This document shows, piece by piece, positions 42,178 to 45,605 of a DNA stretch of 64,000 bases (position 1 is the stretch's first letter; every line of letters starts with the position of its first letter). Made by a program: the position numbers and the translations under genes. The DNA is from Cryobacterium glucosi (lineage in GTDB: Bacteria > Actinomycetota > Actinomycetes > Actinomycetales > Microbacteriaceae). The notes beneath the pieces were generated by a model. That model was not told the origin of the DNA. It saw nothing but the letters and a program-made list of their open reading frames with translations, and did not search any database. Location: the NCBI RefSeq assembly GCF_004402235.1, contig NZ_SOFS01000017.1:1-64000 (forward strand), read 5' to 3'.

Positions 42178-42361
42178 TTCGGGTCAGCGCGCGGGTCAGC
42201 ACGGTTCGGCAGGACGGGCCTGCGACGAGGCGGCTGCGCGGTGCGGAGGCCTGTGGGCAGCTCCGCACCACGCGCACGGCGACGCCCCACTGTCGCCCAT
42301 GAATCCGCGTCGTGCCTGGTTCGAACATGCCGGTTACGGCGTTCCCCCCGGAACTGTAACC

Positions 42362-42410
42362 TAGACATGTCCAACCGAAGGCAAGCGTAGCAGACGTTAG
42401 ACATGTCCAA
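42362..42410 (+). promoter_or_regulatory. two direct repeats with GACATGTC core before the ImmA-XRE operon
   Basis: TAGACATGTCCAA occurs exactly twice (42362-42374 and 42398-42410), 36 bp apart start to start. The inner 8 bases GACATGTC are a perfect palindrome, so each repeat could bind a dimer. The second copy is 50 bp before the chosen start codon of the first gene. The XRE protein of the operon is the natural candidate to bind them. Confidence 0.6.
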
Positions 42411-42459
42411 AGTTACGTTCCAGAATCGGTCGAACGTGGCATCGACCGGGGGAAAGACT

Positions 42460-42954
42460 ATGGATCACCAAGAACGCCAGAAGCGCGCGCACGAGCTTGT
42501 CGCGGCACTCGATCTGCCGCGGCCGCTCACGCCCGAGCGGCTCCACGCGCATATGGAGAGCGTCCGGAAAAAGCAGATTGTGATCCGTGAGGGCAGCGAA
42601 ACGATGCTGCACGCTGGTGTCTGCGGACTCTGGATCGAGGTCGCCGGCGAAGCCTTCGAGCGCATCCACCATGCCCCGACGATCTCGGCGGTGCATCGGC
42701 AGCAGCTCATCAACCATGAATACGGCCATATGATCCTCAGCGACGACAAGGAATTGCTCTCGGCCGATCAAGTTGCGCGATTCGCGCCCCTGATCCCCTA
42801 CGACGCCATCGTGCACGCACTTTTGCGAAGCAGTTTGACCGACGAGCTGGAAGCACTCGCCGAAGCGATCGGCGACCGGCTCGCCTTGACTATGCTGAGT
42901 GACCGCGCGGAGGCCCGGGACGGTGCCCGGACCGGATTCGGGCGGGTGCTGTAA
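42460..42954 (+). CDS. ImmA/IrrE-like putative metallopeptidase
   Basis: A 164-residue protein with a zinc-peptidase motif HEYGHMIL around residue 86-93, followed after about 40 residues by DELEALAEAIGDRL, where the third ligand Glu is expected. This is the arrangement in ImmA/IrrE peptidases that cleave XRE-type repressors. The ATG at 42460 has GGGGGAAAG upstream; a start at 42403 would lie inside a regulatory repeat. Its stop shares a base with the ATG of the next gene. The XRE gene two genes down is the likely partner; target cleavage is inferred, not shown. Confidence 0.75.
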   Translation: MDHQERQKRAHELVAALDLPRPLTPERLHAHMESVRKKQIVIREGSETMLHAGVCGLWIEVAGEAFERIHHAPTISAVHRQQLINHEYGHMILSDDKELLSADQVARFAPLIPYDAIVHALLRSSLTDELEALAEAIGDRLALTMLSDRAEARDGARTGFGRVL

Positions 42955-43967
42955 TGGCCTCCCTCATCGCTGGTGGCGTGAGCGCGCTCCTCTGGCTGGC
43001 CACCCTGTTCTGCCTCCCATCCGTCGTGCGGGGCCGTCGGCGCCTGCTGTTCTCGTTTCTTGCGGTGTTCGCGCTGACGATGTCGCTGCAGACCGATCTT
43101 GTCTTCGACGTGCTCGATGCCGCTCTCGGCGGCGTGAACGTGACGTATTACCTTTTCCACGTCACTGCGGTCATCGCTGTAGCGCTTCTCAACGAACTCG
43201 TGCGGGCCGCATCGTCGGTGCAACCCGGTGGGTGGCGGATCAAACCGATCTCTGCGATCTTCCCGGGGGTGGTCATTCTCATTCAGTCAGTGTTGTTCTT
43301 CGGGGCCGATTGGCGACTGATGCCGGACATCCGCTTTCTTGATCGGTGGGACTACACGGCGTATGCGGCGACCACTTGGGTAGCCCTGGCGTATTTCTCG
43401 GTCACGGTGGCGGCAGCATGTCTCTCGGACCGGCGAAGGCAGCGACGACGACTGACCCGGGTCTCACTCGGCTTCGTCGTTGTCGGCTGCGCCGGTGTGA
43501 TCGTGTACGCCGTCGTCAGCCTCCTCAATGCGGTCATGGCGAACGTCAGCCACAATGCTGACTTCGCGACCGGGACTGGCGGCGTCTACTATGCGGCGCT
43601 ATTGATCGCGCCCTCGTGCCTGGCCGTTGGATTCGGCCTCACGGCGGCGGTTGACGGCGTCATGCGAGTCCAACGGGAAGTCCAGGTTCGCGTACTCCTG
43701 GTGCGGCTCGCACCTCTCTGGGAGCGGCTGTTATCCGAGTCGCCTGAACTCAGCCTCGACGTTCCTGAAACGAAGATCCACTTGGTTCTGACCCGCGGCG
43801 CCGCTGCGCGACTCTACCGTCGCTATGTCGAGGTCCGTGATTGCCTCCTGCTGTATCCTCAGGAAATATCGCAGTCGGACCAGGCGCTGTTGGCTACGGC
43901 GGAGCACCTCGCTTCCCCGGCTGGTCCTCGAGTGTTGCCCATTGTGACTGTGGAGGGTCAGCCGTGA
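42954..43967 (+). CDS. multi-pass membrane protein, MAB_1171c-like
   Basis: A 337-residue protein with about seven hydrophobic segments in the first 240 residues (for example LIAGGVSALLWLATLFCLP, FLAVFALTMSLQTDLVF and VSLGFVVVGCAGVIVYAVVSLLNAVM) and a ~100-residue soluble C-terminus (LWERLLSESPEL...RLYRRYVEVRDCLLLY...QALLATAEHLASP). This pattern matches actinobacterial proteins named MAB_1171c-type putative transporters, which tend to occur beside XRE and ImmA-like genes. Start overlaps the peptidase stop. A membrane sensor role is inferred. Confidence 0.72.
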   Translation: MASLIAGGVSALLWLATLFCLPSVVRGRRRLLFSFLAVFALTMSLQTDLVFDVLDAALGGVNVTYYLFHVTAVIAVALLNELVRAASSVQPGGWRIKPISAIFPGVVILIQSVLFFGADWRLMPDIRFLDRWDYTAYAATTWVALAYFSVTVAAACLSDRRRQRRRLTRVSLGFVVVGCAGVIVYAVVSLLNAVMANVSHNADFATGTGGVYYAALLIAPSCLAVGFGLTAAVDGVMRVQREVQVRVLLVRLAPLWERLLSESPELSLDVPETKIHLVLTRGAAARLYRRYVEVRDCLLLYPQEISQSDQALLATAEHLASPAGPRVLPIVTVEGQP

Positions 43968-43998
43968 TGCGACGAGACGTAGCAGGGGCGGCGCGCCG

Positions 43999-44454
43999 AT
44001 GAAGAGGGGAACGCCTGACGTGAACGGCAAGACTCCCCCGACCGCCCAGCGTCTCAGTGCGCAAATGGAACTGGCGAGGAAGCTCAACCTCTTGCTCGAC
44101 GTCGTCGTCGCCGAGGGGAATACCCCGTATACCTACCGCGAGATAGCCGAGGGCCTGCGGGACAGGTCGCTTTCCCTCTCCCGAGCCCGGTGGGCATATA
44201 TGATCGCGGGGACCGGCCCGCTCGTGACCGACGAGAAACTCCTGACCGGAATTGCCGAATTCTTCCGGATCCCACCGGCCTACCTCCTGGGTTCCGACGA
44301 CGATATCCCCGTCCGCGTGGACGCCCAACTCGCCTTTGTCAAGAGGCTCCGCGCACAACGCGTCGTGAATTTCGCCGCGAGGACTCTGGGCGATGTCTCC
44401 CCGGAAACTCTGCGCACCATCACCCAACTTCTGGAAGAGGACACACTCGAATGA
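43999..44454 (+). CDS. XRE-family transcriptional regulator
   Basis: A 151-residue (or 144 from GTG 44020) helix-turn-helix protein. The DNA-binding region is NTPYTYREIAEGLRDRSLSLSRARWAYMIAGTGPLVTDEKLLTGIAEFFRIPPAYLLG, an XRE fold with a longer turn than lambda-type repressors. The remaining C-terminal 45 residues are helical (VDAQLAFVKRLRAQRVVNF, then ARTLG). GTG 44020 has the better ribosome site (AGAGGGGA); ATG 43999 has GCAGGGGC. The stop overlaps the ATG of the nucleotidase gene. Probable regulator of this operon and substrate of the ImmA-like peptidase. Confidence 0.78.
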   Translation: MKRGTPDVNGKTPPTAQRLSAQMELARKLNLLLDVVVAEGNTPYTYREIAEGLRDRSLSLSRARWAYMIAGTGPLVTDEKLLTGIAEFFRIPPAYLLGSDDDIPVRVDAQLAFVKRLRAQRVVNFAARTLGDVSPETLRTITQLLEEDTLE

Positions 44455-45128
44455 TTCCGAACGCACTTGTGGCTCCCGCCGATCTGACTGCAGCGCTTGA
44501 TCGGTTCCGGGCCGCGCACGGCCGCGCCCCGCGTCTCGGGGTTGACCTTGATGCGACGACCGCTGACACGGTCGGTGGTCTCCGAACCTGGATGGGGGAG
44601 AAGCTCTCGATCCCCCTGGCTGAACGGTCCACGCGATTCCCCGACCTCGACCAGTACGCCATGTGGATCGGCGACGACGCGTGGTTCGTCGATATGCCGG
44701 ACTTCCTCAGTCATTTTGGTCATGCCGAACGCCACGGCTTCTACCTGGGCCTCGCCGTGTTCGACGAGGCTCTCGTGACGCTTCTCGCCCTTGAGGCTGC
44801 CGGATGCGAGCTTGTCGCCGTCACGGCCAGGAGCGACGAGTTCAACTCCGATACGCGGGAGTGGATCGCGTCGAACGGACTGCCCCTGGCCACGGTCGTG
44901 CATTCGGGCTTCGACAAGCACGCGCTCGAGGGGATCGACCTGTTCGTCGACGACGCCCCGCCCGTCGTGACCGGTCTGCTGAAGGCCGGACGTAGCGTTG
45001 TCGTTTTCGACCAGAGTTATAACCGTGCGATTCCGGAGCACGACCGCGGAACCCGGGCGACCGGCTGGGGCGCACCCATGCTCGCGGCCGTGACCCGCCT
45101 GCTGACCGCGCAGGCCGCGGTCGACTAG
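44451..45128 (+). CDS. HAD-superfamily 5'-nucleotidase (NT5C-like)
   Basis: A 225-residue HAD phosphatase. Motif I is LGVDLDATTAD (DxDxT, about residues 26-36), motif II is VAVTARSD and the late acidic motif is IDLFVDDAPPVV, the pattern of 5'(3')-deoxyribonucleotidases (NT5C). It overlaps the XRE gene by 4 bp, so it belongs to the same translationally coupled operon. It could remove nucleoside monophosphates or another phosphorylated metabolite; why it is coupled to a peptidase-repressor pair is unknown. Confidence 0.78.
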   Translation: MIPNALVAPADLTAALDRFRAAHGRAPRLGVDLDATTADTVGGLRTWMGEKLSIPLAERSTRFPDLDQYAMWIGDDAWFVDMPDFLSHFGHAERHGFYLGLAVFDEALVTLLALEAAGCELVAVTARSDEFNSDTREWIASNGLPLATVVHSGFDKHALEGIDLFVDDAPPVVTGLLKAGRSVVVFDQSYNRAIPEHDRGTRATGWGAPMLAAVTRLLTAQAAVD

Positions 45129-45218
45129 CATCCATCCGGCCCGGCCGATCGGTACCGGCGCCGGAGGTCGGCGTGCGCGCCGAGCGTGGTCGCCACGCGG
45201 GAGGCGGTGTTCGTGGGC

Positions 45219-45605
45219 TCAGCTGAGGCTGGCCAGGACGAGGGCGAGGGCGGCGGGGAAGAACTGGAGTGCGGCCGCGCGTCGGTAGGAGGGTCCCGTT
45301 GAAGCGAGGACGACGCCGGCAACCGACATGCAGGCGGTTCCGAAGATGACGGCCGTCTTGCCCGCGGTGAACGCGGAACCGGACTGCGCGAGCAGCACGA
45401 CGCCGACGAGCACCCCGACCGCGAGGGCGAGGTTGTAGAAGCCCTGGTTGTACGCCATCGTGCGGATCGTCGCCGCTTCGTCCCTGGATGCGATCCCGAA
45501 CCGCCCGTAGACAGAGGGGCGCATCCAGAGCACGCTCTCGAAGAGGAAGAAGACCACGTGCAGGAGTGCGGCGATGGTGGCGACGATTTGGGCGGCGATG
45601 AGCAT
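45219..45605 (-). CDS. DUF1304 family membrane protein
   Basis: A 128-residue, four-helix membrane protein. IAALLHVVFFLFESVLWMRPSVYGRFGI and MAYNQGFYNLALAVGVLVGVVLL are diagnostic for DUF1304. The ATG at 45605 has GGAGG 5 bases upstream. Single-gene unit between the nucleotidase and GGDEF genes. Function unknown. Confidence 0.87.
   Translation of the reverse strand: MLIAAQIVATIAALLHVVFFLFESVLWMRPSVYGRFGIASRDEAATIRTMAYNQGFYNLALAVGVLVGVVLLAQSGSAFTAGKTAVIFGTACMSVAGVVLASTGPSYRRAAALQFFPAALALVLASLS

Follow-up and report, generated by a model that had tools for sequence, protein, structure and literature searches.

A conserved trio of M78-type peptidase, DUF6545 membrane protein and EspR-type regulator in Cryobacterium glucosi, probably a self-regulated repressor-peptidase switch

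Why should a zinc peptidase, a membrane protein and a DNA-binding regulator be encoded side by side on an actinobacterial chromosome, behind two copies of the same short repeat? The question is raised by a 64,000-nucleotide stretch of Cryobacterium glucosi, a psychrophilic bacterium of soil and ice (contig NZ_SOFS01000017.1, positions 1 to 64,000 of the forward strand, hereafter the window), in which four tightly packed genes occupy positions 42361-45128:

42460..42954, + strand: M78 (ImmA/IrrE)-type zinc peptidase, 164 amino acids, with the HEYGH motif and a downstream Glu; start set by homology and a ribosome site
42954..43967, + strand: MAB_1171c-family / DUF6545 membrane protein, 337 amino acids; NF042915 and PF20182 matches
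44020..44454, + strand: EspR-type regulator, 144 amino acids; assigned through EspR chains, by single sequence and by profile
44451..45128, + strand: NT5C-type HAD 5'-nucleotidase, 225 amino acids, accessory; PF06941 and phrog_420 matches

The first three genes (the trio) form a real, conserved system, which is probably a self-regulated switch of the repressor-M78 peptidase kind with a membrane partner. As for its mechanism, we favour with moderate confidence, on the grounds of sequence comparison and analogy, an autoregulated repressor that would be inactivated by its own M78 peptidase under the control of the membrane protein, following the logic of ImmR/ImmA or CapH/CapP.

The membrane protein has matches in 47 of 100 genomes including its own, with 45 among the 57 genomes of the genus, and 60 of the 65 foreign match places were fetched for locus comparison. 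These fall into two arrangements. The order peptidase-membrane-regulator (type A, 42 loci, L034-L075) is observed in 40 of 42 loci, a count that includes L050 despite its broken peptidase frame, while L075 is truncated where its contig stops. The order regulator-peptidase-membrane (type B, L076-L093, including near-copies such as L090 and L092) is observed in 18 of 18. In the phylum at large, the membrane protein has matches at 1e-10 in 10 of 296 genomes, our own again counted. An HExxH frame lies just upstream on the same strand at 14 of the 20 foreign phylum loci and on the opposite strand at none; of the six loci lacking it, three (L155, L157 and L162) hold the second copy of a tandem membrane gene, two (L148 and L161) align with part of the profile only, and L159 is without explanation. 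HTH-like (helix-turn-helix) genes within 1.5 kb were noted, rather than systematically counted, at five of these 20 loci (L145, L146, L149, L152 and L153), and two of the four sent to Pfam (L146 and L149) pass the HTH_3 cut-off. The recurrence of the trio in other actinobacteria, put forward in a first-pass annotation of this DNA, is thus borne out for the peptidase and membrane genes. That annotation had also proposed to give up the idea of a system if neighbours were not linked, if homologues lacked the zinc ligands or if the repeat was absent upstream of related operons; all three points were examined and none spoke against it.

The nucleotidase is a different matter. It passes the PF06941 (NT5C) cut-off (29.2 bits against 24.8), matches phrog_420 at 7.6e-14 and shows the HAD motif DLDAT in its sequence. 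Its coupling to the trio, which had been presented as part of the system, is found in two of 57 genomes, and the large search gave five such proteins among 1874 candidates. It was therefore rejected as a core member and is incidental, or accessory, to the switch; the "nucleotide-stress switch" suggested earlier is without support.

The literature searched, mostly papers open without subscription, contained no description of the trio and no mention of "DUF6545". EspR together with ImmA IrrE was not found there, although a slash-joined spelling may escape such a search, and none of the matches listed had IrrE and EspR together. In a Streptomyces synteny study (PMC13118837) the words ImmA, XRE, DUF6545 and MAB_1171c are absent.

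What would the regulator act on? The sequence TAGACATGTCCAA occurs in exact copies at 42362-42374 and 42398-42410, 36 base pairs (bp) from start to start. The two repeats reported before the operon are indeed present, and are the sole copies in the 3.93-Mb genome (none for the reversed control). The peptidase start is most likely ATG 42460, preceded by GGGGGAAAG, and not 42403, because homologues align from 42460 and 42403 falls within the second repeat; both repeats therefore stand 5' of the peptidase gene. The features predicted around them are as follows:

42361..42374, + strand: predicted operator 1, CTAGACATGTCCAA, a 14-bp palindrome with a CATG core (repeat and conservation)
42397..42410, + strand: predicted operator 2, TTAGACATGTCCAA, containing a TAGACA usable as -35 hexamer (repeat, conservation and promoter scan)
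42357..42362, + strand: TAACCT, a -10-like hexamer overlapping operator 1, with the TAnnnT register kept; putative promoter role
42421..42426, + strand: CAGAAT, a -10-like hexamer 17 nucleotides after the TAGACA of operator 2 (promoter scan); putative function

The promoter scan of 42180-45300 gave one sigma-70-like site, TAGACA-17-CAGAAT at 42398-42426 (mean of 0.3 in shuffles), and the -35 hexamer of this sole promoter-like site belongs to operator 2. No terminator-like sites were found in the same interval. An inverted repeat, GGTTACGGCGTTCCCCCCGGAACTGTAACC, lies at 42332-42361, directly before operator 1, and C-rich inverted repeats occupy a similar position in several relatives.

The palindromes recur with the trio. 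All 40 complete type A loci have sites agreeing with TTAGACATGTCTAA in at least 12 of 14 positions (51 sites, within 200 bp of the module, either preceding the peptidase or following the regulator), and such sites are absent from the 579,419 other positions there, so that the repeat is conserved at related operons. Since the consensus and the target zones were picked after the sites had been seen, and since the loci are related, the independent evidence here is the absence of sites elsewhere. TDGACATGTCYA was sought in 57 genomes and found in the own genome at the two operon sites only. For type B, TTGAGCATGCTCAA-like sites, often spaced 22 bp, stand before the regulator in all 13 loci counted (42 sites; L082 was left out and L090-L093 lie outside the count) and at two of 191,766 positions outside. 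Four of the five plasmid modules viewed carry CATG-core palindromes with other arms: on the Arthrobacter and Paenarthrobacter plasmids TGAAACATGTTTCA precedes the peptidase and TGGAACATGTTTCA directly follows the regulator, and the peptidase is preceded by CGGAACATGTTCCG in Citricoccus and by TGGAACATGTTCCG in A. agilis. No such palindrome was recognised in the fifth, the Curtobacterium pC1a module. The CATG core is constant and the arms vary with the regulator clade, which provides the best indirect evidence that the regulator may read these palindromes. Moreover, a TAnnnT hexamer abuts exact GACATGTC sites in a register fixed for each group (counts without a chance control), and in the twin group, which includes the window, the hexamer at operator 1 points towards the peptidase in 11 of 11 cases.

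The regulator itself gives no HTH match in Pfam and was assigned through EspR. Searched as a single sequence, it matches the EspR chains in the PDB at E-values of 2.7e-6 to 4.3e-6; its profile does so at 1.3e-8, the similarity covering the HTH and the C-terminal part (about residues 24-135). The single-sequence list is headed by a zinc-finger chain of which no stretch passes alone, and weak phycobiliprotein matches follow below. Of 21 regulator relatives, six match HTH_31 (best 0.01). The residues around FAARTLGDVSPxxL are invariant in all 21 aligned regulators and make this stretch a candidate cleavage or dimerisation site. In a tree flagged for long branches, above all that of L091, the A2, B and B2 regulators each form one group (100/100, 100/99 and 100/96, respectively). 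In the sections of PMC3315491 available here, EspR dimers place one HTH on each site and bridge sites, and EspR deprived of its ten C-terminal residues no longer dimerises. Paired sites 36 bp apart would suit such bridging dimers and are consistent with an EspR-type dimer-of-dimers mode of binding.

The peptidase carries the HEYGH motif ascribed to it in the first-pass annotation, and its zinc ligands are retained in homologues: H86, E87, H90 and E131 are the same in all 23 peptidases aligned, E131 being the presumed third ligand. The window protein has no Pfam match at E<=1, and 21 of the 23 aligned members match Peptidase_M78 (PF06114) at that threshold (best 1.1e-4). Four of six phylum peptidases sent to Pfam match below the cut-off, and the peptidase profile found no match in a PDB sequence search.

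The membrane protein barely exceeds the cut-off of NF042915, the MAB_1171c family (102 bits against 100), and passes that of PF20182 (36.7 bits against 24.4). The seven helices given to it earlier are plausible in number, but the hydropathy plot (eight windows, two of them overlapping; 5-10 windows among 23 aligned proteins) gives no firm count. Its densest invariant block, RxxVExRD, lies in the soluble C-terminal part, where it fits the contact expected with a partner. The NCBI family name, "putative transporter", raises another explanation, namely that this protein is a transporter whose substrate is sensed by the regulator and for which the peptidase acts as a maturation factor. In the one paper found to mention MAB_1171c (PMC8707978, portion consulted), M. 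abscessus MAB_1171c mutants lose about half of their biofilm, which is compatible with this idea. However, no transporter Pfam domain is matched, the most conserved block (YRRxVEIRD-like) belongs to the soluble C-terminal part, and the linkage to an M78-type peptidase is constant, so that we hold a transporter operon to be improbable. In several genomes, large and probably of Streptomyces, tandem membrane genes follow a single peptidase (L147/L162, L150/L157 and L155/L160), and a gene resembling a flavin adenine dinucleotide-dependent monooxygenase, judged by eye, adjoins several of these loci.

The favoured mechanism draws on known pairs. As far as the text of PMC2701414, PMC13373217 and PMC10233336 used here goes, M78 peptidases inactivate linked HTH repressors in ImmA/ImmR and CapP/CapH. 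ImmR/ImmA of ICEBs1 and TnSmu1 likewise combines a small HTH repressor with an M78 HExxH peptidase and controls conjugative elements, a context shared by type B and plasmid trios, while the window trio differs by a fixed membrane third member, an EspR-type regulator and a chromosomal location. Adjacent HTH regulator and M78-type peptidase genes, as in ImmR/ImmA and CapH/CapP, here share an operon, in which the membrane gene separates them (type A). CapH/CapP, found in cyclic-oligonucleotide-based anti-phage signalling systems (CBASS) and other immune operons, also places an HTH protein and an M78-type peptidase near defence genes. Among the PADLOC models, capP is matched by the type B peptidase of L088 (4.1e-5) and capH, weakly, by the window regulator (0.0041), the single PADLOC match of the window operon. 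CapP differs in being activated by single-stranded DNA (excerpt of PMC13373217), and the window trio differs in having a membrane protein and no defence gene alongside. In Deinococcus, the sources at hand describe IrrE as an M78 peptidase that inactivates a linked repressor, DdrO, of genes sharing a promoter motif. IrrE/DdrO controls a DNA-repair regulon, and we know of no membrane partner for it. EspR of mycobacteria resembles the window regulator in sequence across its HTH and C-terminal regions, but is a nucleoid-type regulator, and the consulted part of PMC3315491 names no peptidase with it. The MAB_1171c family (NF042915, DUF6545), of which the window membrane protein is a member, comes with its putative-transporter name and with no trio function in the sources found.

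From these elements the following course may be proposed. The EspR-type protein would bind the CATG-core palindromes that overlap the promoter and keep the operon low. The M78 peptidase, encoded on the shared transcript, would cut the conserved C-terminal part of the regulator and break the dimer. Translation of the membrane protein would be coupled to that of the peptidase; the membrane protein would take up a signal at the membrane and release or activate the peptidase through its cytosolic DUF6545 tail. On mobile elements such a switch would free transfer genes and perhaps cargo; on this chromosome it would control its own operon, to which the nucleotidase gene has been added.

The same three proteins could also be read as a toxin-antitoxin-like set, with the peptidase as toxin, the regulator as antitoxin and the membrane protein as effector. 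The part of PMC2701414 seen here does list M78-Xre pairs among predicted toxin-antitoxin pairs, but puts three conserved membrane-Xre pairs aside. For TnSmu1, ImmRA was tested and the authors' evidence, in the extract of PMC10233336 consulted, is against a toxin-antitoxin role; furthermore, neither PADLOC nor PHROGs, which were not designed to cover toxins generally, gave a toxin match for the trio. Such a role appears very unlikely.

Is the switch a part of mobile DNA? Judged by marker genes, the type B trios looked at are located in conjugative elements, and defence genes are often close by; more markers were checked for G023 than for L078, L080, L088, L091 and L163. In G023 one flank of the trio encodes a coupling protein (PF02534/PF12696), an integrase (PF00589) and an HTH_17 protein next to tRNA-Gln, and ArdC, ParB-like and M23 proteins are encoded alongside other type B trios. 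A type-B-like membrane protein was also found in 12 plasmid records, nine of them typed conjugative. In each of the four viewed, an HExxH peptidase gene precedes the membrane gene and, after another gene or a gap, comes an EspR-type regulator 36-41% identical to that of the window; the one in AP024663 was named "secretion protein EspR" by its depositors. Curtobacterium pC1a, a separate match, carries peptidase, membrane and regulator genes about 2.6 kb from a type IV secretion system gene.

PADLOC was used to seek defence genes among those neighbours on the membrane-gene side that stood out by their size, without control cargo from elsewhere in the elements. At 1e-10 or better, 10 of 11 genes match, from 10 of the 14 loci L076-L089 (L076, L084 and L087 sent none and L082 has no match). 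They correspond to BrxC (L079, L080), HmaC (L083, L088), type IIG (L089), HKD+Snf2 (L077), a UvrD/GajB-like helicase (L081) and type I parts (L085, L086, and about 10 kb away in L165 beside L078). An alpha/beta hydrolase gene follows the membrane gene in L078, L081, L085, L086, L089, L091, L242 and L244 (Pfam-checked for L091) and is a possible fourth member in many type B and plasmid modules.

The earlier proposal of a mobile-element sensor therefore gains indirect support from the paralogues in conjugative elements and on plasmids but not from the window copy, which has no conjugative-element genes among its neighbours. Type A occupies several chromosomal sites (gene names by eye). The interval from a pyk-like gene to a response-regulator gene with tRNA-Leu measures 281-864 bp without the trio in 16 of 30 loci, and with the trio it reaches 2.5-3.1 kb (L042, L046-L048, L053 and L054); the pyk end was out of range in the remainder, our own genome included. 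The insert is the trio alone in the five loci of about 2.5 kb, and L042 has one more gene. At the own locus, relatives (at least 86%) of the flanking DUF1304 protein occur in only four genomes, all with the trio there.

One may then ask whether the window trio is a stranded conjugative-element switch, left in the chromosome, now regulating itself and perhaps acting on incoming elements. The transfer, integrase, ArdC, ParB-like and M23 genes beside type B trios, the conjugative plasmids and the pC1a module speak for this explanation. Against it, type A stands at several chromosomal sites with no element genes among the called neighbours, and among the 57 genus genomes the own one and 40 others have the full trio, with one peptidase frame broken; besides, the palindromes of types A and B differ, making cross-control unlikely. 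We regard this origin as unlikely, though less so than the transporter or toxin-antitoxin explanations. A phage origin was also considered and rejected, query A3 having found no relative in the viral contig collection. A scan of the genome contig collection found nothing.

Several observations weigh against the proposed self-regulated switch. The TAnnnT hexamer of the single-site group is on the opposite strand and points away from the peptidase gene in 17 of 17 cases, and in A2 a strong operator with TAnnnT stands after the regulator gene in nine of nine, so that autoregulation is not uniform. Isolated operator matches in relatives were viewed at 19 loci: at 11 the match falls within a called gene (ABC-F-like or dehydrogenase-like by eye, for instance) and one, L133, is a trio upstream region, but in the other seven (L127, L128, L131, L137, L138, L139 and L141) the site lies outside called genes, which may indicate a wider regulon. 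The defence gene is on the trio strand in five of ten cases (L077, L079, L080, L086 and L088) and on the other strand in five, which argues against simple co-transcription with the trio. L051 holds only the membrane gene of the three, and the peptidase frame of L050 is broken. Finally, the membrane protein could be a target or an output rather than the sensor. As to the seven isolated sites outside genes, their neighbours might be further targets.

The A2 loci add a possible RNA component. A conserved non-coding sequence of about 200 nucleotides follows the operator in eight of nine loci (L066:8519-8768 and the same place in L067-L071, L073 and L074), L072 having lost part of it. It would form hairpins with GGGGGG loops, with 69 consensus pairs in eight sequences, four of these pairs being changed on both sides, and a folding z of -6.3 (L067). 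In the single-site group another stretch is found, unlike that of A2 but likewise strongly folding (z -5.7 for L061; alignment of 17). The part that the operator hexamer would transcribe, L061:6197-6399 (minus strand) and its counterpart in single-site relatives, begins with a G-rich hairpin. Rfam returned no match over cut-off for the G-loop stretches, weak matches only; the opposite strand of L067 is weakly 6C RNA-like (27.4 bits, cut-off 47). A 6C-like RNA, one per genome, is found in 19 of 21 genus genomes at E<=0.001, two of them over the family cut-off. We take the small RNA B11 to be 6C RNA. In M. abscessus, a six-G tract has been proposed to pair with either C-rich loop of B11 (PMC10470900, in the part consulted).

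Taken as a whole, a broader picture may be outlined, which we offer as tentative. The trio would represent a new actinobacterial family of membrane-gated proteolytic switches, made of an EspR-type repressor, an M78 peptidase, a DUF6545 sensor and clade-specific CATG-core palindromes, which would control conjugation and defence cargo on mobile DNA and would have been captured repeatedly by chromosomes. Some clades would drive a GGGGGG-loop RNA that could titrate the C-loop 6C RNA, and EspR, an orphan nucleoid regulator, would have its origin in a switch of this kind. In the source passages used here, M78-repressor switches answer intracellular signals (single-stranded DNA, RecA, RapI), ImmA activation being reported via RapI or RecA (PMC10233336, same extract). 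A constant membrane partner would allow a response to the envelope or the outside, that is, a surface input for actinobacterial conjugative elements. As trio relatives lie on mobile DNA near transfer and anti-virus genes, this may be a common route by which surface signals switch these on. The proposal would also give the MAB_1171c/DUF6545 family a testable function, the EspR family a possible origin and the search for such modules a simple operator code.

Some details of the locus remain to be described. GTG 44020, preceded by GAGGGGAA, is the most likely start of the regulator; the alternative ATG 43999 would lengthen the protein by seven residues. The nucleotidase most likely starts at ATG 44451. 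The first-pass annotation had all four genes joined by overlapping or near-overlapping ends, which holds for peptidase and membrane genes (TAATG, 42952-42956) and for regulator and nucleotidase genes (ATGA, 44451-44454), but not for membrane and regulator genes, which are separated by 52 bp, containing an 11-codon frame, if GTG 44020 is the start. The window holds no tRNA genes, and the locus is neighboured by nrdD-like (by eye), PF08592, DUF1304 and GGDEF genes. The 11-codon frame (43967-44002) overlaps both the membrane gene stop (TGATG) and ATG 43999, and in many relatives the regulator gene overlaps the membrane gene directly.

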